Source: Halobacteriovorax marinus
GTDB taxonomy: Bacteria; Bdellovibrionota; Bacteriovoracia; Bacteriovoracales; Bacteriovoracaceae
Direction of reading: 5' to 3'
DNA: 64,000 nt
Assembly: GCA_002163155.1 (NCBI GenBank)
Contig: MAAO01000006.1
Span: 1,302,001-1,366,000 of the forward strand
A program made the position numbers and the translations under genes. Of this stretch, positions 52,873 to 64,000 are shown piece by piece. The stretch's first letter is position 1. The number at the start of each line of letters is the position of its first letter. The notes under the pieces are model-generated. The model did not search any database and was not told the origin of the DNA. It was given only the letters and a program-made list of their open reading frames with translations.

Positions 52873-53268
52873 TTAAAACTTCTCTTGGCGAAGTTTCTTA
52901 TTAAGACCGTTGAGTTTCTTTGATTTGAGACGTTTCTCTTTAGATCCTCGGGTCGGCTTGGTGGCCTTTCTGGCCTTCTGGGCGAATTCAACCTTACTTA
53001 AATAATTCATAAGCTTGTCTAGGCAATCGCCCTTATTAAGCGTCTGAGTGCGGTGTTTCTGGCTTGTTATGACCACTTGGCCTGCGTCGCTAATCATATT
53101 AGAAAATTTTTCTTTAAAACGAAGTTTAATGGAATAATTGATGGACTTTGAATGAAAGAGATTCCAAGTGAGGGTGGCCTTTGTGTTAAGTTTGTTCACA
53201 TTTTGACCTCCTTTTCCGGAGGCCCTCGAAAATGAATAACTCAGCTCACTTGGGTCAAGTTGAATCAT
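52873..53268 (-). CDS. arfB: Alternative ribosome-rescue factor ArfB (YaeJ family)
   Basis: The 131 residues hold the release-factor-type GGQ motif (ASGKGGQNVNKLNTK; 20-22) and a basic, Lys/Arg-rich C-terminal tail (residues 96-131) that enters the mRNA channel of stalled ribosomes. ArfB hydrolyses peptidyl-tRNA on ribosomes lacking a stop codon. The ATG lies 2 bases after the prfC stop, so translation is coupled. Confidence 0.93.
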   Translation of the reverse strand: MIQLDPSELSYSFSRASGKGGQNVNKLNTKATLTWNLFHSKSINYSIKLRFKEKFSNMISDAGQVVITSQKHRTQTLNKGDCLDKLMNYLSKVEFAQKARKATKPTRGSKEKRLKSKKLNGLNKKLRQEKF

Positions 53269-53270
53269 GA

Positions 53271-54878
53271 CTAGTGAGCTTTCTTAAAATCAGAAGTAGT
53301 GAAAAATTCCACGTCTTCATTCTTTTCCATAACAAGCTTTAAGTCCCACTCAGAACGAACGGCAAAACATGTTCTGGCCTTATTATCGTAGACTATGTTG
53401 TTACCATTTTTTTGAATGAACTTATCTTTTACAATGTCATTTGGAAATTTAAGCCAACGCACTCCTGTAAAAGCGTAGTGTTCATATTCCCCGCGCACAT
53501 TGTATTCACTTTCCAGACGATGTTTCACAACATCAAACTGAAGTGCACCAACGGCACCTAAGATTTTCTCAGGAGTAGTGTGTCTTCTAAAGAGCTGCAC
53601 AGTTCCTTCTTCGGAGAGTTGTTGTAGACCCTTATCAAGTTGCTTTGCTTTCATAGGGTCTCTTAAAAGAACCTTTTTGAAAATCTCTGGAGCGAAGTTT
53701 GGAATTCCTGTGAATTCAATTTTTTCGCCATCGGAGAAAGTGTCTCCTATTTGAAATTTACCAGTGTCGTGAAGACCGATAATATCACCTGGTAAGGCGT
53801 ATTCAGTGATCTCTCTATCCTGTGCTTGAAAGATAAGGGGAGAGGCGATCTTAATATCTTTACCCGTTCGCACGTGGTGAATTTTTGTATTTCTTTGAAA
53901 TCTTCCTGAACACACGCGCATAAATGCGACACGGTCACGGTGTTTCTTATCCATGTTGGCCTGAATCTTAAAGATGAAACCTGTGAATTTCTCTTCTGAA
54001 GGAAGCACTTCACGAACTGGCGCGTCTTCATCAAAAGGAGCAAGCTTCACTTCTCTGGGCCCTGGTCCTGGACCATTACTAGAGATCATATCAAGAGTTT
54101 CTTTTACGCCAAAGTTATGGAGAGCTGTTCCAAAGAAAACAGGAGTCATAATTCCTGCAAGAAATTCTTCCTTATCAAAAGCTGGCATCATCTCACTAAC
54201 CATTTCTAGGTCTTCTTCAAGCTGATCAATTAATTCTTCACCCACGTAATCAAGTACTGCTTGTGATCTTAAATCACTGGCATCGAGAACGATGGGTTTG
54301 TCTGGATCAATGTTTTCACCAAAACTTCTAATAGTCTTAGATTTAATATCGTAGACACCTTTAAAATCAACACCACTTCCCACGGGCCAAGTCATGGGCA
54401 CGCATTGAATAGAACAAATCTTTTCAACGTCGTCGATAAGTTCAAATGGATCAATGGCATCACGGTCAAACTTATTCATGAAAGTAATAATGGGAGTGTC
54501 ACGCAAGCGACATACTTCCATTAGCTTCTTAGTCTGAGTCTCCACACCCTTTGCAGAGTCGATCATCATAAGAACTGATTCAACTGCTGTGAGTGTTCTA
54601 TATGTATCTTCAGAGAAGTCCTTGTGACCAGGAGTATCGAGTAAGTGCATGGCACGATCGTTATAAGGAAAGGACATTACGGAAGACGTGATCGAAATCC
54701 CTCTTTCTTTTTCCATCTCCATCCAATCGGACTTTGCGTAATTACCCTGTTTTGATTTTACCATTCCGATGTCTCTAACAACGCGTCCAAACCATAGTAG
54801 TTTTTCAGTCATTGTTGTTTTCCCGGCATCTGGATGTGAGATGATGGCAAAAGTGCATCGTGGGTTTTCTTCTTTCAT
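53271..54878 (-). CDS. prfC: Peptide chain release factor 3 (RF3)
   Basis: The 535 residues form a translation GTPase: SHPDAGKTT (14-22), DTPGHKDFSEDTYR (81-94) and NKFDRD (135-140), with the RF3-type C-terminus. RF3 removes RF1/RF2 from ribosomes after termination. It forms a unit with arfB. The ATG has only a weak ribosome site. Its first 14-17 codons and upstream region are duplicated near 63.5 kb (see repeat entries). Confidence 0.95.
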   Translation of the reverse strand: MKEENPRCTFAIISHPDAGKTTMTEKLLWFGRVVRDIGMVKSKQGNYAKSDWMEMEKERGISITSSVMSFPYNDRAMHLLDTPGHKDFSEDTYRTLTAVESVLMMIDSAKGVETQTKKLMEVCRLRDTPIITFMNKFDRDAIDPFELIDDVEKICSIQCVPMTWPVGSGVDFKGVYDIKSKTIRSFGENIDPDKPIVLDASDLRSQAVLDYVGEELIDQLEEDLEMVSEMMPAFDKEEFLAGIMTPVFFGTALHNFGVKETLDMISSNGPGPGPREVKLAPFDEDAPVREVLPSEEKFTGFIFKIQANMDKKHRDRVAFMRVCSGRFQRNTKIHHVRTGKDIKIASPLIFQAQDREITEYALPGDIIGLHDTGKFQIGDTFSDGEKIEFTGIPNFAPEIFKKVLLRDPMKAKQLDKGLQQLSEEGTVQLFRRHTTPEKILGAVGALQFDVVKHRLESEYNVRGEYEHYAFTGVRWLKFPNDIVKDKFIQKNGNNIVYDNKARTCFAVRSEWDLKLVMEKNEDVEFFTTSDFKKAH

Positions 54879-55200
54879 ATATAATTATCCGTTAAATTTG
54901 TTTTATTTTAAGTAGTTATAGCGCATTTTTTGGAGGGCGTAAATGGGGGATTGAGAAGGGTCTAGTGAGATGTTTATGTGATTATAGTGAGTTGTGGGCC
55001 CTGGTTTTGCGTGGTTTTTTTCTCTGCTTAGTTTTCAGCTACTTTGGGGCGATTTAATTTTATTGAAGAGCGGGGTTTTTTCGTGGTTAAAATGACACAT
55101 TTAAACTGATTCTTTTTTGATTTTAAGGGGTTATTTCAGGGGGCGATATATAGTCTCCAATGTGCACCGCTGAAGATGAATAGTGAGTCATTCGACAAAT
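54831..55200. repeat. Direct repeat, copy A (prfC 5' end and upstream region)
   Basis: The copy starts inside prfC (codons 1 to about 16) and runs about 320 bp upstream of it. Bases 54895-54952 (58 bp) are identical to 63582-63639. The rest is similar with gaps: for example ccaatgtgcaccgctgaag near 55161 recurs with one change near 63853, and tatgtgattatag (near 54976) recurs at about 63662. The prfC ATG (54878) corresponds to 63565, an offset of 8687 bp. Confidence 0.85.
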
Positions 55201-55380
55201 TTTCAATTACTTATTGGTACTGTTGAATGTTTTGTACTCTCTGTAGGATTAAAAGAAAACAGTATCTCTTAAGAGTAGGTCAGCCATGTGACACCCTATG
55301 TAATTAGTAAAGGGTTTCGTACTTCTTGGGTTCAATAATTTATACTTAGATGGTCTGTTAGTAATTTTGGAGCACACTTT
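54879..55380. other. 502-bp intergenic region upstream of prfC
   Basis: The left 320 bp are repeat copy A and presumably include the prfC promoter on the minus strand. The remaining 180 bp lead into the mini-gene at 55381. No gene is seen. Confidence 0.5.
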
Positions 55381-55503
55381 ATGAATTTAAAATCATTTCT
55401 TATTACTGTTCTAATTACGAAAGAAAATTATCGTTATAGAGAGTCTTTTAAAGGACTTTCTGAGACGTATGATCTAGCAGTTGATGCTGATGATTGGCTT
55501 TAG
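55381..55503 (+). pseudogene. 40-codon mini-gene, internally deleted paralogue of the 57384 gene
   Basis: The open frame ATG-TAG has a ribosome site (TTTTGGAG, 8 bases upstream). Its start (MNLKSFLI) matches the signal start of the 331-residue protein at 57384 (MNMKSILI), and its end (ESFKGLSETYDLAVDADDWL) matches that protein's C-terminus (DSLKGLSKAYEIVVELDDWF). The leaders also agree (ggagcacacttt versus ggagcaaccttt). About 290 residues are missing in frame. It may be a relic or a functional micro-protein, and it is 2 bases before the next ATG. Confidence 0.7.
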
Positions 55504-55505
55504 TT

Positions 55506-56963
55506 ATGAAATTAAAGTTTATAACTTTTATATTACTATCTTTATTTCCAACTCTTAATCATGGAGTTGAGTTTAAGAAAACGGGAATTTATAGACCTTG
55601 TCAATATTACTCGCTATCAAAAAGTGATGGGTTTTCTATAACTTATTCACTTGAACTTGGTCTTAATCTCCTGATGGGTGAGCCTGTTGTTCAGAGTAAG
55701 CTTTCTTGGGGCTATGCAGATATTGATAACATCTGCTTCAAACCCTTTGGAAATGATGAAGCCGTAATGGTTGATAATACTCGTGGAGAAAACCTTCCTT
55801 TTGATTTAGATCTCTTGGTAGAGGTGTCAGCTTCATCGCACTCATCAAATAAGTCGATTTACTTAAAAATCAACCCCGGAGTCTTATCAGGAAAAACAGA
55901 TGCTTTAAGTTACAATACTCCAGGAAGCCCAAATTGGAATAAACTTTTTTTCACTCTATCAAATGGAGACCCTAGAGATGAGTCTAATTTTAATTACCTA
56001 AGTGTTAATGAAGCAAAAGAATTCTTTTCTAGAGATATATATATAGTTGATACTCAAGTCGTAAAGTCTCGCTATAATATGAATCACGCGAGATCTGCAT
56101 ATCATCGCAAAAATAGAGTAAAGAGAAAAGAAATGCTAACGGTAATTGTTAGTAAGTCAGTTAATTGGATAGAGTCTAATATTAATAAAATTCCCGCAAG
56201 GCTTCTGAAAAAAATTGAATATGCTAAAGCTCTTCCTCTAGATGATAGTATTGCTGAGCTCGTTAGAATTATAGACTCTTTCGCTAATAAACCACTCCCA
56301 GGTTTTCTATCTATAAAGCCTGAGGATCAAGAGAAATATAAAACTTTACAGAGAAAAGTTAAACAGCATCTCTTAAAAATTGAAAGAAAAATAAATGATT
56401 ATAATATAACTTTAAGTAGCGCATCTTCAAAAAGTGTCTCTGAATTGAAACTTATTAATAAGGCCATACGAGACAAGAGGGCAGCTTTAGATTCTAGGGA
56501 GACAAGTCTCGAACCTGATGTGAATTGGATCAATAAAACTCTACAACGTTATTTAGTTAAAAAGAATAGTTCTACAGTTAGAATTGAATATAAGCGTATT
56601 CATTTCTCTCTGACAGGGAGAAGTGTTGTTGATTATGTATTACACTCATCTTCATATGATGGTCTTGCTAATGAGATGGATAACTCTAGTTACGGACATC
56701 GGTATGAATTTCATTTAGAGGACATACTTTATAGTAGTAGATCTACTTATAACTGCTCTATAGAGGTCGACGAATGTCTAAAACTTAGGTTTAGTCAAAA
56801 AATAATTAATGGTTATGGTGGAAATCAAGGTTATTGGATAACTAGTAATATGCCTGATCGTACTGACATTATTCAACTTTCTCTTAAGAATGATACACCC
56901 GAGCATACTAAGGAAAAGCTCCTGCAACAATTTGAATTAATAAAAATGTACTTTTCAAATTAA
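55506..56963 (+). CDS. Exported protein of unknown function
   Basis: The ATG at 55506 is chosen because it gives a signal peptide (MKLKFITFILLSLFPTLNHG) and sits 2 bases after the stop of the 40-codon frame; 12 bases upstream the frame is still open. No own ribosome site is visible, so translation is probably coupled. The 485-residue product has a helical, Lys-rich middle (about 185-345, probable coiled coil) between two strand-rich parts. No family was recognised. Confidence 0.7.
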   Translation: MKLKFITFILLSLFPTLNHGVEFKKTGIYRPCQYYSLSKSDGFSITYSLELGLNLLMGEPVVQSKLSWGYADIDNICFKPFGNDEAVMVDNTRGENLPFDLDLLVEVSASSHSSNKSIYLKINPGVLSGKTDALSYNTPGSPNWNKLFFTLSNGDPRDESNFNYLSVNEAKEFFSRDIYIVDTQVVKSRYNMNHARSAYHRKNRVKRKEMLTVIVSKSVNWIESNINKIPARLLKKIEYAKALPLDDSIAELVRIIDSFANKPLPGFLSIKPEDQEKYKTLQRKVKQHLLKIERKINDYNITLSSASSKSVSELKLINKAIRDKRAALDSRETSLEPDVNWINKTLQRYLVKKNSSTVRIEYKRIHFSLTGRSVVDYVLHSSSYDGLANEMDNSSYGHRYEFHLEDILYSSRSTYNCSIEVDECLKLRFSQKIINGYGGNQGYWITSNMPDRTDIIQLSLKNDTPEHTKEKLLQQFELIKMYFSN

Positions 56964-57383
56964 TATAACTAACTCCTCAGCTAAGGCTGTTGATGGATAT
57001 ATTACTTTGTAATAGTGAATTAATTCCTTTGACGCTAAAATTACAGATGGGGAGAGGATTCTTAATATCATTCGTTCGATATCATAATGATCGAGCCATA
57101 TAAGTTTATTAGAGTAATTATCCAGAAAGAATTAGTCTCAGTTTTGTCATTAATCTAAGAAATCACTATATTATGTAAATTTTTTCAAAGAATTCCGTTA
57201 ATAATTTGGATGTTTAGGTAGTGCCTTTGAATAGTTTATATTGTTTGTGCAAACAGTGGACACTATTTACTTTAATATTATGTGTATGGTGTGTCGCTTC
57301 TATGTAAATAATATCTTGTTACGTATTTTCTCCTGAGAATATTTTATAATAACTAGGTATTTAATATCTATGGAGCAACCTTT
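56964..57383. other. 420-bp intergenic region
   Basis: No gene is seen. There is a small palindrome around GATATC/ATTCGTTC/GATATC near 57078, and a -10-like TATAAT at 57345-57350 before the next gene. The ribosome site TATGGAG lies just before 57384. Confidence 0.35.
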
Positions 57384-58379
57384 ATGAATATGAAATCTAT
57401 TCTCATTCTTATAATATTTATGTTAACAGGTTTATCTCATGCTGAGTCTGGCGTAACAGCAGCAACTCGAAGTATGATTAAAATTGCTTGTGAGAAAGAT
57501 TTAACAGTCCTTTTAAAAGTTACTTTGAAAAATGACACAAAAGAAAATGTAAAAAAAATAGTTATTGAGTCTACAAATTGTTTAAATAAGGCAATTAACA
57601 ATCTTGAATTTTTCAACTTACTTAAGACAATATTCTCAGATGAAGAAATGTCTAATTTAAATAATTATAATGATCCAAGGTTTGCTTTTTACGATGCTTG
57701 TACTATGAAGTCATATAATGAAGCTATATATAATACTGTTTGTTTTTCAAATCTAAAAAAAGGTAAGGAACCTTGGTTTGACGTAGCTCCAGCTAGAGAT
57801 GATTATTACTTTTGGAGAATCTTTGATGATTCGGTTGCTTCAAGAAAAACTATTAAGATCCTTAAAGAGTTAGGAAATTTTCCTCTATTCATACCTAATG
57901 ACTGGAACGGTGAGGGTGAGATTCTTTTACCTTCTGTTATGGCAGCTTATCAATATGGTTTAATACACTCTTCAACTCCTAGAACTCCTACTTATATTAA
58001 TCTTATAAATACAACTGAAAATATTGATGCTTTTGTATTGTTTAAAGGTTATGGCGACACAACACCAAAAATAAGAACTTTGATTTCTATGGCCACAAGA
58101 AATAATGATTACACAACAATTGAAGAAGTAAAACTTATATACAGAGAACGTGGACTAAGTGAAGTTGAAACTTCTCCAATATTAGAAGCCTTAAAAAAAC
58201 TAGACGTAAAAACTGCAATTAATCTTATTAACGAAGGTCATGATATTAATGTGTTTGATAAAGATGGATTAACAATTCAGGGTTTTATTTTACTTGAAAA
58301 CAGTAGGAAGTTTAGAGATTCATTAAAGGGCCTATCTAAGGCATATGAAATAGTAGTTGAACTTGACGACTGGTTTTAG
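57384..58379 (+). CDS. Exported protein with one ankyrin-like repeat
   Basis: The protein has 331 residues and a signal peptide (MNMKSILILIIFMLTGLSHAES). A helical body with a few cysteines is followed near 270-305 by an ankyrin-type unit (SPILEALKKLDVKTAINLI, NEGHDINVFDKDGLT). The end, DSLKGLSKAYEIVVELDDWF, is shared with the mini-gene at 55381. The function is unknown. The ribosome site TATGGAG is good. Confidence 0.72.
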   Translation: MNMKSILILIIFMLTGLSHAESGVTAATRSMIKIACEKDLTVLLKVTLKNDTKENVKKIVIESTNCLNKAINNLEFFNLLKTIFSDEEMSNLNNYNDPRFAFYDACTMKSYNEAIYNTVCFSNLKKGKEPWFDVAPARDDYYFWRIFDDSVASRKTIKILKELGNFPLFIPNDWNGEGEILLPSVMAAYQYGLIHSSTPRTPTYINLINTTENIDAFVLFKGYGDTTPKIRTLISMATRNNDYTTIEEVKLIYRERGLSEVETSPILEALKKLDVKTAINLINEGHDINVFDKDGLTIQGFILLENSRKFRDSLKGLSKAYEIVVELDDWF

Positions 58380-58699
58380 TCAAAATATGGAACTGTTAAT
58401 CAATATTGATTAATTTTGTTTGTGAGATAAAACTATATGCTAGTTAAGGTATTCTCACTTTATTTGATGAGTGATTTTTTGGTATTTGACTACTAGAATG
58501 ACATTGACTAAAAAGTTGTACTACGTATTCAACTCGTTTTAAAGTGAACATAATTAAGACTCTACCTAAGTATTGTAGGAGAGTTCTTCTCTGTTTTTAT
58601 TATTTTAATATGATTTTGATTTATTGCTTTTTGAAAATCTTTGTTTTATCTATGGAGACGGAACCATAAAATATTATGGCCCCGTTCACAAGGTATGCC
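58380..58699. other. 320-bp region with dispersed repeat copy 1
   Basis: The region lies between converging genes. It has AT-rich DNA with no gene and contains copy 1 of the dispersed repeat (58573-58665). Confidence 0.4.
58573..58665. repeat. Dispersed degenerate repeat, copy 1 (left part)
   Basis: It contains taggagagttcttct then tattttaatatgattttgat, closely matching copy 2 (60598-60642). The right-hand part (gggttaattcgtcctatcc) is not clear here. Confidence 0.65.
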
Positions 58700-59155
58700 T
58701 TAATTAAAAAAAGCGCACTCTTCACTAATTGTAACCATGTCTTCAACCAATTTTTTAGCATCATTTGAATCATCAAAACTTATAAATGATATCGTTCTAC
58801 TTCCAACTTTGACTCGTGCAAATGGAGCATCTGAAAAGTATATATTATTCATTCCTCTAGAATAAATAGCTTCGTAATCTACATTTTTATTGAAATCGAA
58901 ACTTAGAGTGAATTTTACTCTATTACCAGTTTTTAAAGAGGTTGCTTCACCTTCTAGTTCAACACCACAACCATCTCCAGCTATTGATGTGTATTGAAAA
59001 TCTAAGGTTGTAAGTCTTTTATGGTAACTTGAAGACCAAAAATATGAAGAATTGTAACGAATGTTTTCTTTTATTCTCGTGGCAATGTCATAAGAAGAGG
59101 CCATTGATTGGCTTGATAAAACAGTTGTAAATAGTACAAACAATAGTGTTTTCAT
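58700..59155 (-). CDS. Small exported protein of unknown function
   Basis: The protein has 151 residues, with a signal peptide (MKTLLFVLFTTVLSSQSMAS), and AAGGAAA precedes the ATG. The mature part is strand-rich, with cysteines in DGCGVEL and near the end (EECAFF) that could pair. No family was recognised. Confidence 0.72.
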   Translation of the reverse strand: MKTLLFVLFTTVLSSQSMASSYDIATRIKENIRYNSSYFWSSSYHKRLTTLDFQYTSIAGDGCGVELEGEATSLKTGNRVKFTLSFDFNKNVDYEAIYSRGMNNIYFSDAPFARVKVGSRTISFISFDDSNDAKKLVEDMVTISEECAFFN

Positions 59156-59179
59156 AAGTTTCCTTTTTGATTTAGCATT

Positions 59180-59216
59180 TTTTGAACAATTGGGTTAATT
59201 TGTCCTATCCTTCGTA
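59180..59216. repeat. Dispersed degenerate repeat, right part only
   Basis: The motif tttttgaacaattgggttaa and the following tttgtcctatccttcg match the right end of copy 2 (about 60690-60725) and copy 3 (62560-62586). Confidence 0.65.
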
Positions 59217-59362
59217 CAATCTTAACCATGAGGCTAACATTGAGTTCATCTTCCACTTTTTTTAGATAGAAAGAGAGATAGAAACTTGTTGCACATTTCT
59301 TACATTAGATAAAAGTGCGCTAAACTTAAAAAGATCTAACGCACTTTGAATAATTAAAAATA

Positions 59363-59794
59363 CTAAATGTTAAAAAAGTCAGGACAAGGCACGTCACACT
59401 GAGATGACAGTACATCACACATGTCGCCAATAAATTCACGCTGAGACTCAAGATTTTTTTCATTAAGTCTTCTATTTCTTTTTGCAGACTCTTCATTTTC
59501 ATCATAACAAGACATATATGCTTTTCTAAATGACTGGACAGCTTTTATAAACTGTTTTCCACCAAGCCATGCTGCCATTCTAGCTTCTTGCAGTGATTCA
59601 CAAACAACTTCGTTATCAGGATTACTAGAAGAACTTTCTTCCTTAGCACTCTCAAATCTTCTTGAAGCAGTTTGAACGAAACGATTGCCTTTTGCATTTT
59701 GGTAAACACCTTTGTTGAAATTATCTTCACATTCATCAGCTATCACTGAAAAAGAAAATAAAGTTATAGCTAAAATTAAAATTGATTTTTTCAT
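59363..59794 (-). CDS. Small exported cysteine-containing helical protein
   Basis: The protein has 143 residues, with a signal peptide (MKKSILILAITLFSFSVIAD). The mature protein looks helical, with cysteines at DECEDN, EVVCES, MSCYDE, DMCDV, SQCDVPCP; the pattern suggests disulfide-linked helices outside the cytoplasm. No family was recognised. TAGGAAA precedes the ATG. Confidence 0.72.
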   Translation of the reverse strand: MKKSILILAITLFSFSVIADECEDNFNKGVYQNAKGNRFVQTASRRFESAKEESSSSNPDNEVVCESLQEARMAAWLGGKQFIKAVQSFRKAYMSCYDENEESAKRNRRLNEKNLESQREFIGDMCDVLSSQCDVPCPDFFNI

Positions 59795-59889
59795 ATTGTT
59801 TCCTAAAGCACTTTAAAATTTTATAAAGTGTTAATTAAATTATTTAGTTAATATTTTTTAAATACACAGTTCTTATAAGGATTTTATTT

Positions 59890-60201
59890 TTAATTACAGT
59901 ACGCGTGAGTATTTACCCATTGCCCGTAAGAATTGTAACCATTACATTCAACATACTGAGCTTGTTGAACAAAGAAAGTACATCCTTGACCGTAAGTCTG
60001 ACACTGAATTCTTCTTCCGCCCCAGCACTGAGTGTATGCGTAACAGTTGTTTCTCTTGTTGTCTTTCATCACTTTTACTTCCTCTAAAGAGATTGATTCA
60101 ACACTGTGATCAATTTCTTGAGAGAAAGAAAAGTCTCTTTCTGTAGCTGTAGTAGCGAAAGTTAATAATAATGTAGTAGCAATTAAAAGCATTTTCTTCA
60201 T
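59890..60201 (-). CDS. Small exported cysteine-rich protein
   Basis: The protein has 103 residues, with a signal peptide (MKKMLLIATTLLLTFATTAT). The short pro-like middle is followed by a cysteine- and aromatic-rich tail (NNCYAYTQCWGGRRIQCQTY, GQGCTFF, VECNGY, AYCN), typical of small disulfide-stabilised secreted proteins. The function is unknown. The ribosome site TGGAG is good. Confidence 0.75.
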   Translation of the reverse strand: MKKMLLIATTLLLTFATTATERDFSFSQEIDHSVESISLEEVKVMKDNKRNNCYAYTQCWGGRRIQCQTYGQGCTFFVQQAQYVECNGYNSYGQWVNTHAYCN

Positions 60202-60395
60202 GTGTAATCTCCAGTAGTAATTTTTTGGAGAATTTATAGATCCTTTCTATATACGTCAAAGGAAATTGTTTATTCTAAAGATATCTTGAGGTACTAGTTT
60301 TCATTTTTCGAAATATGTAAATATTTCAATTCTTGCGATCAAAGTATTGAGAGTGTATGCCCTGTAGGCTGATTCAATAAGCGATCCACAAAATC

Positions 60396-60527
60396 CTATA
60401 CAAATAAACAACTTTCAATATCAGATTCTAAATCTTCGTCAAGATTATTAATTCGAGCACTTGCTTTAATGATAAACGGTAAGTGGAATGACGAATTTTC
60501 GTCAAAGTCATCCTTGTTGAGAAGTTT
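60396..60527 (-). pseudogene. Remnant of a C-terminal coding segment
   Basis: A 43-codon open stretch ends in TAG and is bounded upstream by an in-frame TGA. It has no start or ribosome site but reads like real protein (FDENSSFHLPFIIKASARIN, then a Glu/Asp-rich end DEDLESDIESC). It is probably what is left of a lost gene. The identity is not recognised. Confidence 0.35.
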
Positions 60528-60595
60528 TCAGAAATTGCTTTATAGGAAGGTGATGATCTCTACACATTAATAAATAGTTATATCTTTCTAGGGAA

Positions 60596-60735
60596 AGTAG
60601 GAGAGTTCTTCTATGCTTTGAATATATTGATATGATTTTGATTCTTTTCTCTTTGGAAGATAGAAGCAGGGAGATTGGTACTTTGAGACTTTTTGAAGAT
60701 TGGGGTTAATTCGTCCTATCTTTGCTTCTTAGACA
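60596..60735. repeat. Dispersed degenerate repeat, copy 2 (fullest copy)
   Basis: It begins with taggagagttcttct, continues through atgattttgattcttttctc and ends gggttaattcgtcctatctt. Other copies in this island match one or both ends. Confidence 0.7.
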
Positions 60736-60858
60736 GTCAAATAGCAAAGAGCTTATGTTTTTTACAGGTTAAATAAAATTTAAGTAGACTTGATGTTAGT
60801 ACTTAGCCTATCTATTAAAGTTAAGTTTAAGTCTTTTATCTTTTATTATGGAGCTATT

Positions 60859-62382
60859 TTGAAATCGTTATTGATCTTTTTTATTCTAACACTAACATCT
60901 ATAGAATTATCTTCCTCAGCTAATATAAATAGTTTTTCTAATAAAGCAACGGTTGAAGATGCCATAGAAAATTTTTTAGAAAATTGTAGAGAGGGAAAAA
61001 ATATCTCTGAAATTAAACTTGCTCTATCTTCTCCTCTTCTTGACGTAAATCAAGAAGATGAATTTAAAGATACTGCTTTAATCTATGCTTCAGAGCGTGA
61101 ACATTATGAAATAGTCCAACTTCTTCTTAAACACAAAAACATAGATATAAATAAACAAAACTCTGTTGGTGTATCTGCTTTAACGGATGCAGTTGTTTAC
61201 AATCATATAAATATTGTAAAATTACTATTGCTTGAAGAAAAGATTAATGTAAATAACCTTGATGATTTTGGTGGTGCACCACTCTGCTATGCTTTAGAGA
61301 ATGTTGAAATATTTAAAATTCTTCTTGCTCATCCCGAAATAAATATTAATTTATGCGATCCCCTGACTATGCTCTCTTCTTCTCCTACAGATGGATCAGG
61401 TCAAAGAGAAGTTAACATTACTTTGGTTAGGTTACTTGTAGCAAGGCCAGAAATAGAGATAAATAAACTTAATTATTACGGAAGTAGTCCTTTGCACATA
61501 GCCTCTGAGAGAGGAGATTTCAAGTTCGCTCAAATATTACTTTCTCTGCCAGGGATATTAGTGAATCTACAAAATACAGATGGTAAAACAGCATTAAAGA
61601 TTGCATTTGAAAGTAATCACAATGATATTGTTCATTTGTTGATAGACAATAGAGCAACAAATTTTGATATAGATCCAGACCCAATTAAAAACTTTATAAA
61701 GAACTGCTATGAAGGAATTAATGTATTAGCAATTAAAAATGCGCTTTCATCAAGCGAGCTTAATGTGAATGGTGTAGATGAATTAGGGAATTCTGCTTTA
61801 ATTTGGGCAATAGATAGAGGTCATAATTTAATAGCAAAGCTACTTTTAAATAGGTCTGACATTAATGTTAACATCTTTAACAAAGAAGGAAGCAATGCTC
61901 TTGTAGTTGCTGTGTATTACAAAAATATTGAAATTGTTGAAAAACTACTATCTTTTAAGAATTTAGATGTTAACAAACGTTATCAAGATGGACATAATGC
62001 TTTAACTTTTGCCTCTCGGCATAACTATAAGAAGATACTTTCACTCATTATAAATCATCCTAATTTGGATATTAATATTTATGGTAAGCACGGGTGGACA
62101 GCCTTAATGCATGCCTCATATATGGGCCACGTTGATATTATTAGAGAACTTCTTAGTCATGTTGAGCTGGACATAAATAAGCCAGGGATGAACCCTAAGA
62201 AAACACCTCTTATGTTGGCATCGGGTAGAGGTCAATTAGAGGTTGTAGAACTTTTTCTTTCTAACTCGAAAATTAAAATTAATAAAAAAGATAGTGAAGG
62301 CAATAGAGCGCTGTATCATGCTAGGTATCACTATCGACACGAAATAGAAAAAATATTATTAGAAGCTGGAGCGAAAGAATAA
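60859..62382 (+). CDS. Exported ankyrin-repeat protein
   Basis: The TTG at 60859 is preferred: ATGGAG lies 5 bases upstream and a signal peptide follows (KSLLIFFILTLTSIELSSSA). The 507-residue product consists of about 12 ankyrin units of 33-36 residues, for example TALIYASEREHYEIVQLLL and SPLHIASERGDFKFAQILL, with DINK/DVN turns. The protein is an internal duplication: the first half starting VEDAIENFLENCREGKN is repeated from IKNFIKNCYEGIN (about 61690). Ankyrin repeats bind proteins; an exported one may act on an envelope or host/prey partner. Confidence 0.85.
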   Translation: MKSLLIFFILTLTSIELSSSANINSFSNKATVEDAIENFLENCREGKNISEIKLALSSPLLDVNQEDEFKDTALIYASEREHYEIVQLLLKHKNIDINKQNSVGVSALTDAVVYNHINIVKLLLLEEKINVNNLDDFGGAPLCYALENVEIFKILLAHPEININLCDPLTMLSSSPTDGSGQREVNITLVRLLVARPEIEINKLNYYGSSPLHIASERGDFKFAQILLSLPGILVNLQNTDGKTALKIAFESNHNDIVHLLIDNRATNFDIDPDPIKNFIKNCYEGINVLAIKNALSSSELNVNGVDELGNSALIWAIDRGHNLIAKLLLNRSDINVNIFNKEGSNALVVAVYYKNIEIVEKLLSFKNLDVNKRYQDGHNALTFASRHNYKKILSLIINHPNLDINIYGKHGWTALMHASYMGHVDIIRELLSHVELDINKPGMNPKKTPLMLASGRGQLEVVELFLSNSKIKINKKDSEGNRALYHARYHYRHEIEKILLEAGAKE

Positions 62383-62483
62383 AGCATTATGTTTTATTCT
62401 TATTGTGTTATATCTATTATTTCCAACTCTGAGCTTCTCTTTTATTTTCCCATCATCGAAGTTGAAGGTGGTTATAATGAATA

Positions 62484-62590
62484 GTTATTCTTCGTTTTGA
62501 ATATTCTAAAATGATTTTTAATTAATTTTTATAGAATTTGGTACATAGAGGTTTCTAGATATTGGTGGTTAATTCGTTCTATCCTTCAAG
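62484..62590. repeat. Dispersed degenerate repeat, copy 3
   Basis: It contains ttcgttttgaatattctaaa then atgatttttaatt, and ends with attggtggttaattcgttct followed by atccttc. It matches copy 2 along its length with several gaps. Its right end runs into the 3' end of the gene at 62586. Confidence 0.6.
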
Positions 62591-63236
62591 CCTCTCTTAT
62601 TTCACTAAACTCTTCCAACTCTTTCCAGATTTTATACGTTGAGGCTTTCGAGCTTTTAAGCTTTTTCATCGCACCATATGATTTGTCTACAAGCTTTAAA
62701 TCTCTAAGTGTTGCTATATCTGCTCTAAGTCCAACGCCGAACACAAGTCTATTTCTGTACCAAGTGTTACTTTTGAGTAGTTTTGCTCTACTGATAAGTT
62801 TTACTTTGTGTTGTTTTTGAAAAGGAATAGTATAAATTCCAAATTTAGATAGAATAGTATCTTTACCTTGGAGCTCTACTCTTTTTTCTGAGCTTAGAAA
62901 ATAAGAGCTACCTTTTGATTGTTGTTTCAGCTTTTTTAAGAGCTTCTTATACGAAGCTCCATTGGCCTCAGGAAGCTGTTGAATAATTGCTGCTAAGAAT
63001 CCTGAGCTTAATTGATCTAGCTTGTCAGAGTAGTGAAATATCACCTCTAAGCGTAAGAAATTAGAATACTCATTCGTTGCGAGACATAAAAGAGAATAGT
63101 ATCTTCTAGAAGTTTGAAATTCTTTTAATTGAACAATGGATACAAGAGCCTCTTCAGGGGAGATTATTGTTTGCTTCGTCTTTACAGTAAAGGCAATTCC
63201 AAGAACTGATAGATATTCTTCAGTAGCATTTAACAT
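62586..63236 (-). CDS. Protein of unknown function
   Basis: The protein has 216 residues, with GGAG 8 bases before the ATG. There is no signal peptide, so it is cytoplasmic, unlike its neighbours. It is helical and basic in the second half (KKLLKKLKQQ, KLISRAKLLKS, AMKKLKSSKAS). I do not recognise a family. It could be a DNA- or RNA-binding protein or part of a defence module, but no motif supports this. Confidence 0.65.
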   Translation of the reverse strand: MLNATEEYLSVLGIAFTVKTKQTIISPEEALVSIVQLKEFQTSRRYYSLLCLATNEYSNFLRLEVIFHYSDKLDQLSSGFLAAIIQQLPEANGASYKKLLKKLKQQSKGSSYFLSSEKRVELQGKDTILSKFGIYTIPFQKQHKVKLISRAKLLKSNTWYRNRLVFGVGLRADIATLRDLKLVDKSYGAMKKLKSSKASTYKIWKELEEFSEIREA

Positions 63237-63283
63237 AGACTATTCTCCGAAACCTAGTTTTAGTCTAAGTTCATCTAGAATTG

Positions 63284-63391
63284 CTACTTTGCAATTAACT
63301 TGAAAAGCTTGTCAGGGAGTAGACGGCTGAGTTCTTTAAGTCCTGTATTAATAACTTTAAATCCAAGCTCATAACGACTCCTTTTGTTGAA
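63284..63391 (-). pseudogene. Remnant of a C-terminal coding segment
   Basis: A 35-codon open stretch (ending GLKELSRLLPDKLFKLIAK) lies just upstream of the gene at 62586. It is bounded by a TGA and has no start. The amphipathic helix looks like a true protein end. An overlapping 25-codon frame starting near 63375 has AAAGGAG before its ATG but is too short to support. Confidence 0.3.
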
Positions 63392-63437
63392 TCATACACT
63401 ATGGCTCTTTAAAAAGGCATACCGTTTTTTAGGTAGT

Positions 63438-63517
63438 TTTATCTGCGAACGGGGCTTTTTCGTTGTTTAAAGGTTTCAAATGTTAATTTTCTTTTTAATT
63501 TTAGAGACTTACTTGAG
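63438..63517. repeat. Direct repeat, partial copy C (prfC-upstream type)
   Basis: The segment gaacggggctttttcgttgt and the following T-rich 60 bp resemble 55065-55150 of copy A. It lies directly before copy B, so the repeat is in tandem here. Confidence 0.5.
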
Positions 63518-63890
63518 GATGGGAAAGTTGATGGCAAATGTACACCGTGGGTTTTCTTCTTTCATATGTGATTTTCCATTTAATTTGTTTTATTTTAAGT
63601 AGTTATAGCGCATTTTTTGGAGGGCGTAAATGGGGGATTTAGTCGTTTGGAGTTGAGGTTCTATGTGATTATAGAGGGTTGGGAGCGTGGTTTTTACGTG
63701 GTTTTTTATCTGTGTAGGTTTGGTGTTATTTGGTTTTATCTTTTTTTAATGGGCAACGGGACTTTTTCGGGACTATTTTATACTTTCATATGCCTTTCTT
63801 TTGCCATCTTAGGGTCTTAGATTGTTTTCATAAGAGATGAGTTCCAATGTGCATCGCTGAAGATAAATAGCGAAGTTTATTAAATATTTG
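63518..63890. repeat. Direct repeat, copy B (prfC 5' end and upstream region)
   Basis: It is a second copy of the prfC start and upstream DNA. On the minus strand 63565 downward reads MKEENPRCTFAI, the same first 12 residues as prfC, then diverges to a stop within a few codons. Bases 63582-63639 are identical to copy A. The matching part ends with the ccaatgtgcatcgctgaag block near 63853. Confidence 0.85.
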
Positions 63891-63977
63891 TTCTCATCGT
63901 TCTCATCTTTGTTTTGAAGAGCATTGTTGGTGAGTGTGTTGAGTGGAGTTGTGCTCTAATTTCTGAATTATCTAAGA

Positions 63978-64000
63978 GAGTGGGAGAGTTCTTCCCCGTT
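63978..64000. repeat. Dispersed degenerate repeat, left end cut by window edge
   Basis: The motif gagtgggagagttcttc matches the left start of copies 1 and 2; the rest lies beyond the window. Confidence 0.5.

Follow-up and report, generated by a model that had tools for sequence, protein, structure and literature searches.

What does it mean that the 5' end of prfC, the gene for release factor RF3, recurs beside the intact gene in Halobacteriovorax marinus, which is related to predatory bacteria, and how did the sequence between the copies come to lie there? We examined this question in a window of 64,000 nucleotides (G000:C1:1302001-1366000) from the H. marinus genome G000 (4.55 Mb in 16 contigs), together with four genomes of the same genus, G001 to G004; positions above 64000 are window-equivalent coordinates taken from the genome. 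The gene itself (53271..54878, minus strand) is an intact open reading frame with the Pfam domains GTP_EFTU and RF3_C. Its product is 87-88% identical to that of congeners, and the closest named relatives come from Bacteriovoracaceae or Halobacteriovoraceae genomes, at about 70-79% identity. Because prfC lies on the minus strand, its upstream sequence is to the right. Directly downstream, at 52873-53268, is a gene with an RF-1 domain, which has a homologue in the same place in G002. Comparison of these sequences makes it highly probable, in our judgement, that a family of integrative and probably conjugative elements uses the prfC 5' end as its attachment site, and that repeated integration has stacked their remnants in G000.

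The 5' end of prfC, comprising 12 codons, the promoter and ~300 bp upstream, is present in four copies, all oriented alike, at 54839, 63526, 65747 and 82257, and a whole-genome search of G000 found no further copy. A first-pass annotation had described two of these, in the same orientation and with the second broken after about 12 codons; both are confirmed by sequence comparison, and the match of copy 2 to prfC indeed ends after 12 codons (MKEENPRCTFAI), but the total is four, since the whole-genome search places two more past the window. Aligned base by base, as that annotation had proposed, copies 1 and 2 are similar well beyond the identical block of 58 bp that it had noted: they share 117 bp at 91% (54839-54955 / 63526-63642), 46 bp at 80% and 31 bp at 90%, with all three blocks at one 8687-bp offset and three synonymous changes in the stretch of first codons. 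In the whole-genome search, copy 3 (genome 1367748-1367858) matches at 95% over 111 bp and copy 4 (genome 1384257-1384596) at 96% over 340 bp. The peptides encoded by copies 1 to 4 are MKEENPRCTFAI, MKEENPRCTFAI, MKKENPRCTFAI and MKEESPRCTFAI, respectively. All four copies start at one point within prfC codon 12, and this common left breakpoint, which aligns with an exact 21-bp repeat in G004, defines a putative attachment core covering prfC codons about 5-12 (core 1, GATGGCAAAAGTGCATCGTGGG, at 54843..54864 and core 2 at 63530..63551, both plus strand), with the cores of copies 3 and 4 at 65749 and 82261.

The nature of this breakpoint becomes apparent in G004, where prfC and the conserved genes that adjoin it in G003 and G001 are about 55 kb apart. 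A 21-bp stretch of G004 prfC (codons 8-14) recurs exactly, as a direct repeat, 49.4 kb away; to the right of this far repeat stands a second prfC start, MEDNAKRCTFAIIS, followed by the promoter box typical of the genus, GAGTAGTTATAACGCAT, while the prfC now in use starts MNEDSPRCTFAIIS. Both starts keep the reading frame as they enter the core, which is what one would expect of an element that arrives with a prfC start and pushes the resident one aside. The interval enclosed by the repeats encodes a tyrosine integrase of 401 aa, two more tyrosine recombinases, a TraC/VirB4-like ATPase and a TraD-like coupling protein, so that integrase, VirB4-type ATPase and coupling protein all lie within the attachment repeats, as in an ICE. 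A scan of part of the genes for a relaxase gave a weak Replic_Relax match below cut-off, and because a relaxase was not identified among the genes scanned, we call the element conjugative-type. The integrase matches generic Xer-type models only, below cut-off, and no close relative was found in the plasmid collection (about 26% identity at best coverage). We dropped a reading of the G004 genes as a three-recombinase (RIT-like) set, since the third of them is Mom-like. A gene for a CBASS-type oligonucleotide cyclase lies close to the element's far end (L154:1559-2878).

The first-pass annotation had set against its own reading the case that all relatives carry both copies, and this is not what the genomes show: G001 and G003 have a single prfC 5' end followed by the conserved genes, with no island, and a second copy was not found in eleven other family members (5-80 kb examined). 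Named Bacteriovoracaceae and gammaproteobacterial prfC loci likewise show no 5' duplication, within flanks whose short length would let large elements escape notice. In G000, the conserved neighbours of prfC sit on another contig, C2; contig C1 ends 94 kb beyond prfC, so that the island is at least this long and its far end is out of view.

These observations bear on the alternative offered by the first-pass annotation, a plain tandem duplication of the prfC region with later loss. Such a duplication would leave direct repeats in one orientation, as we see; however, four copies end at the same codon with unrelated sequence past it, this point is the attachment core of the G004 element, and motifs described below flank the cores at fixed distances. 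We therefore regard tandem duplication as extremely improbable. The old, decayed, prfC-targeting insertion that the same annotation had put forward beside it is, in contrast, supported in its mechanism by the G004 element and the shared breakpoint.

Under the mechanism that we favor, the prfC 5' end (codons about 8-14) would serve as the chromosomal attachment site in this Bacteriovoracaceae genus, with a tyrosine recombinase, presumably of the G004 kind, joining the attP of the element to prfC. The element end adjoining prfC would bring substitute first codons and a promoter, with the original start moved to the far end, and RF3 would stay intact because the element end carries these replacements. 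Copy 1 (54839..55186, minus strand; 96% identical to copy 4 over 340 bp) would be this attL-type end, giving prfC its first codons, promoter and one arm motif, and copy 2 (63526..63873, minus strand), which in sequence comparison has arm-like motifs on both sides, would be a displaced prfC 5' end. With repeated integration at one core, elements may then have piled up in G000, each junction retaining a prfC 5' end, and later loss of integrase and transfer genes would have produced the remnants E1, E2 and probably E3, which resemble CIMEs. The host-type promoter box is present in every G000 copy but missing from the element-supplied start in G004; the elements of G000 may have captured the prfC start of a host, or recombination may have exchanged it.

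Further support for element ends comes from a short motif near the cores. With at most one mismatch, GGGRCTTTTTCG has six matches across a 149-kb stretch of G000, against 0 to 4 (mean 1.4) in twelve Markov-shuffled sequences, and all six occurrences lie at a fixed distance from a core, either -79 (copies 2, 3 and 4) or +228 to +230 (copies 1, 2 and 4), positions that are not independent because the copies are homologous. In the window these are GGGGTTTTTTCG at +229 of core 1 (55072..55083), GGGGCTTTTTCG at -79 of core 2, at the right end of E1 (63451..63462), and GGGACTTTTTCG at +228 of core 2 (63758..63769), all on the plus strand; TTTTTTCGTGGTT is likewise a candidate arm motif. In G004 the far core has the equivalent of the -79 motif at -76, and the near end contains a related form twice. 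Copy 1 has the motif on its element side only and copy 3 only at -79, while copies 2 and 4 have it on both sides, as a junction between two elements should. Copy 3, whose left side is mostly unlike the others, and G004 are stronger support for the motif than these homologous positions. The location near element ends suggests that these motifs are putative arm sites, to which the integrase would bind.

The cores divide the near part of the island into successive elements. E1 (54843..63529), the 8.7-kb stretch from core 1 to core 2, is without integrase or transfer genes; the first-pass annotation was thus correct in seeing no integrase between the two window copies. The G004 element explains the shared breakpoint, and E1 would therefore be a decayed, integrase-less, CIME-like element; on the sequence comparisons, the stack at prfC comprises at least two or three elements, of which E1 is the first. 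E2 (63530-65748; 2.2 kb) also has no integrase or transfer genes. E3 (65749-82260; 16.5 kb), a probable element, contains a broken tyrosine-recombinase C-terminus some 3.5 kb beyond the window, placed at 67529-67717 and, in a frame with a stop, at 67538-67735; one of the recombinases in the G004 element matches it at 57% identity. Beyond 64 kb, where the first-pass annotation had advised a search for a third copy or an integrase, there are two more copies and, in E3, a broken recombinase end only.

Copy 3 is the least clear of the four. Its left side has little in common with the other copies (a 27-bp match), and its role is uncertain because the +229 motif is absent and an IS91/ISCR-like open reading frame follows. 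This frame is a gene for a Y2 transposase (L006:15941-17359), the only one of its kind found in G000; no IS91 transposase match was found in the G004 element. One could picture an IS91/ISCR-like rolling-circle element that picked up the prfC 5' end as its terminus and spread it, a view favored by the position of copy 3 immediately before the transposase and by a likeness between the sequence past the transposase gene and the right side of both copy 2 and copy 4. However, copies 1, 2 and 4 have no transposase, and the breakpoint matches the core at which an unrelated element of the tyrosine-recombinase type is attached in G004, and we consider this origin very unlikely.

A further question is whether every copy records a separate integration. 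Near the right end of E1 is a gene for a 216-aa protein (62586..63236, minus strand) without a Pfam, NCBIfam or PADLOC match, whose homologue near copy 4 is 76% identical, with codon differences that are mostly synonymous (88 vs 52). Next to it lies a 17-residue remnant of a DUF6036 nucleotidyltransferase (63317..63367, minus strand; 65% identity, E 4e-4), of which an intact gene, recognized by Pfam, stands beside copy 4. Copies 2 and 4 thus sit in homologous modules, bounded by 140-bp repeats and 71-74% identical over 1.5 kb, and because the homology spans the whole module, copy 4 may be a later duplication instead of a separate integration. Only one or two integrations would then be needed, with copy 4 and others arising by recombination between the repeats that duplicated a module of 216-aa gene, junction and repeat; both modules hold a nucleotidyltransferase or its remnant, and the array contains an exact 982-bp tandem duplication bounded by repeats. 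On its element side, however, copy 4 agrees better with copy 1, at 96%, than with copy 2, at 82%, which simple copying of the copy 2 module does not predict, and we think this scenario possible, though on balance somewhat unlikely.

The 140-bp repeats form the second distinctive feature of the island. There are 37 matches, 29 of them strong, from 58563 to 140159, with all the strong ones on the plus strand; the modules that they separate hold one or a few genes each, in either orientation. The repeats have sharp edges and are best conserved at their ends: between pairs, the outermost 10 bp on each side are 0.82-0.87 identical, and identity drops to background immediately outside. Those in the window lie at 58563..58663 (first 96 positions, with positions 100-138 at 59173-59211), 60592..60722, 62481..62585 and 63969..64000 (the start of a copy that continues to 64108, beyond the window end), all on the plus strand. 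The first of these (58563-59211) is split between positions 96 and 100 by ~500 bp with a gene for a 151-aa exported protein. Farther out, the 982-bp unit, a repeat plus the gene for a 168-aa exported protein, is duplicated at 69630-71734 (L007:630-2734), and five copies at 67-74 kb are identical across about 140 bp. By BLAST against the whole of G000, every match except one weak one lies within the island. G002 has three repeats next to its own prfC, and elsewhere, among 95 family genomes with at most nine candidates scored in each, there was one short weak match only. The repeat has no Rfam match in the 40 kb scanned and no match in viral contigs or plasmids.

An array of this kind invites comparison with a chromosomal integron whose cassettes acquired prfC sequence. 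About 30 repeats on one strand divide small gene modules that include toxin-antitoxin-like pairs, yet the repeats fold no better than shuffled sequences (z-scores of +0.7 and 0.0 for the L006 sequences, -0.4 and -1.0), nothing exceeds the integron-integrase cut-off (TIGR02249), and genes occur in both orientations, which makes an integron scarcely credible here. The toxin-antitoxin-like pairs are found at L006:14955-15585 (a HipB-type regulator and a small partner) and L007:11894-13101. One may also imagine an unknown cassette system that lacks IntI and folding attC sites, recombines at the repeats and has gathered small modules, each with one or a few genes, into a one-strand array beside prfC, in which the prfC-targeting elements were caught up; we find this doubtful.

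Integration at prfC is a known mechanism; its occurrence in this bacterial group and the repeat array are new to us. We found no paper that combines prfC, integrative elements and Bdellovibrio, and established no tie between prfC and the region B hot spot of H. marinus (PMC5760749). A large variable island in one genome would thus be explained by simple accretion, exact attachment sites are now defined and open to excision tests, and the repeat-partitioned gene array merits a study of its own.

The closest parallel is provided by the SXT/R391 ICEs (PMC4344509, PMC2786100), which share the target gene and the target end, integration through a tyrosine recombinase, and an RF3 that stays intact, and for which tandem arrays of co-resident elements are documented (PMC2786100). 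The SXT elements are from Vibrio, whereas those described here are in a distant bacterial group and are stacked. The first-pass annotation had suggested an insertion of SXT/R391 type; insertion into the prfC 5' end holds, but the best NCBIfam model for the G004 coupling protein, SXT_TraD (TIGR03743), scores 117.8 bits, far under its cut-off of 366, and we do not assign the elements to that family. The genomic islands at the dusA 5' end (PMC4482086) likewise use the 5' end of a conserved protein gene and a dedicated integrase family, with a target gene other than prfC. CIMEs have no integration and transfer genes, keep attachment sites on both sides and may be stacked one behind another at a target gene's end (PMC5704250); the remnants at prfC appear to fit this description, with attachment sites flanking each and integration and transfer genes lost, but differ from known cases of accretion in that the elements are mixed with an array of 140-bp repeats.
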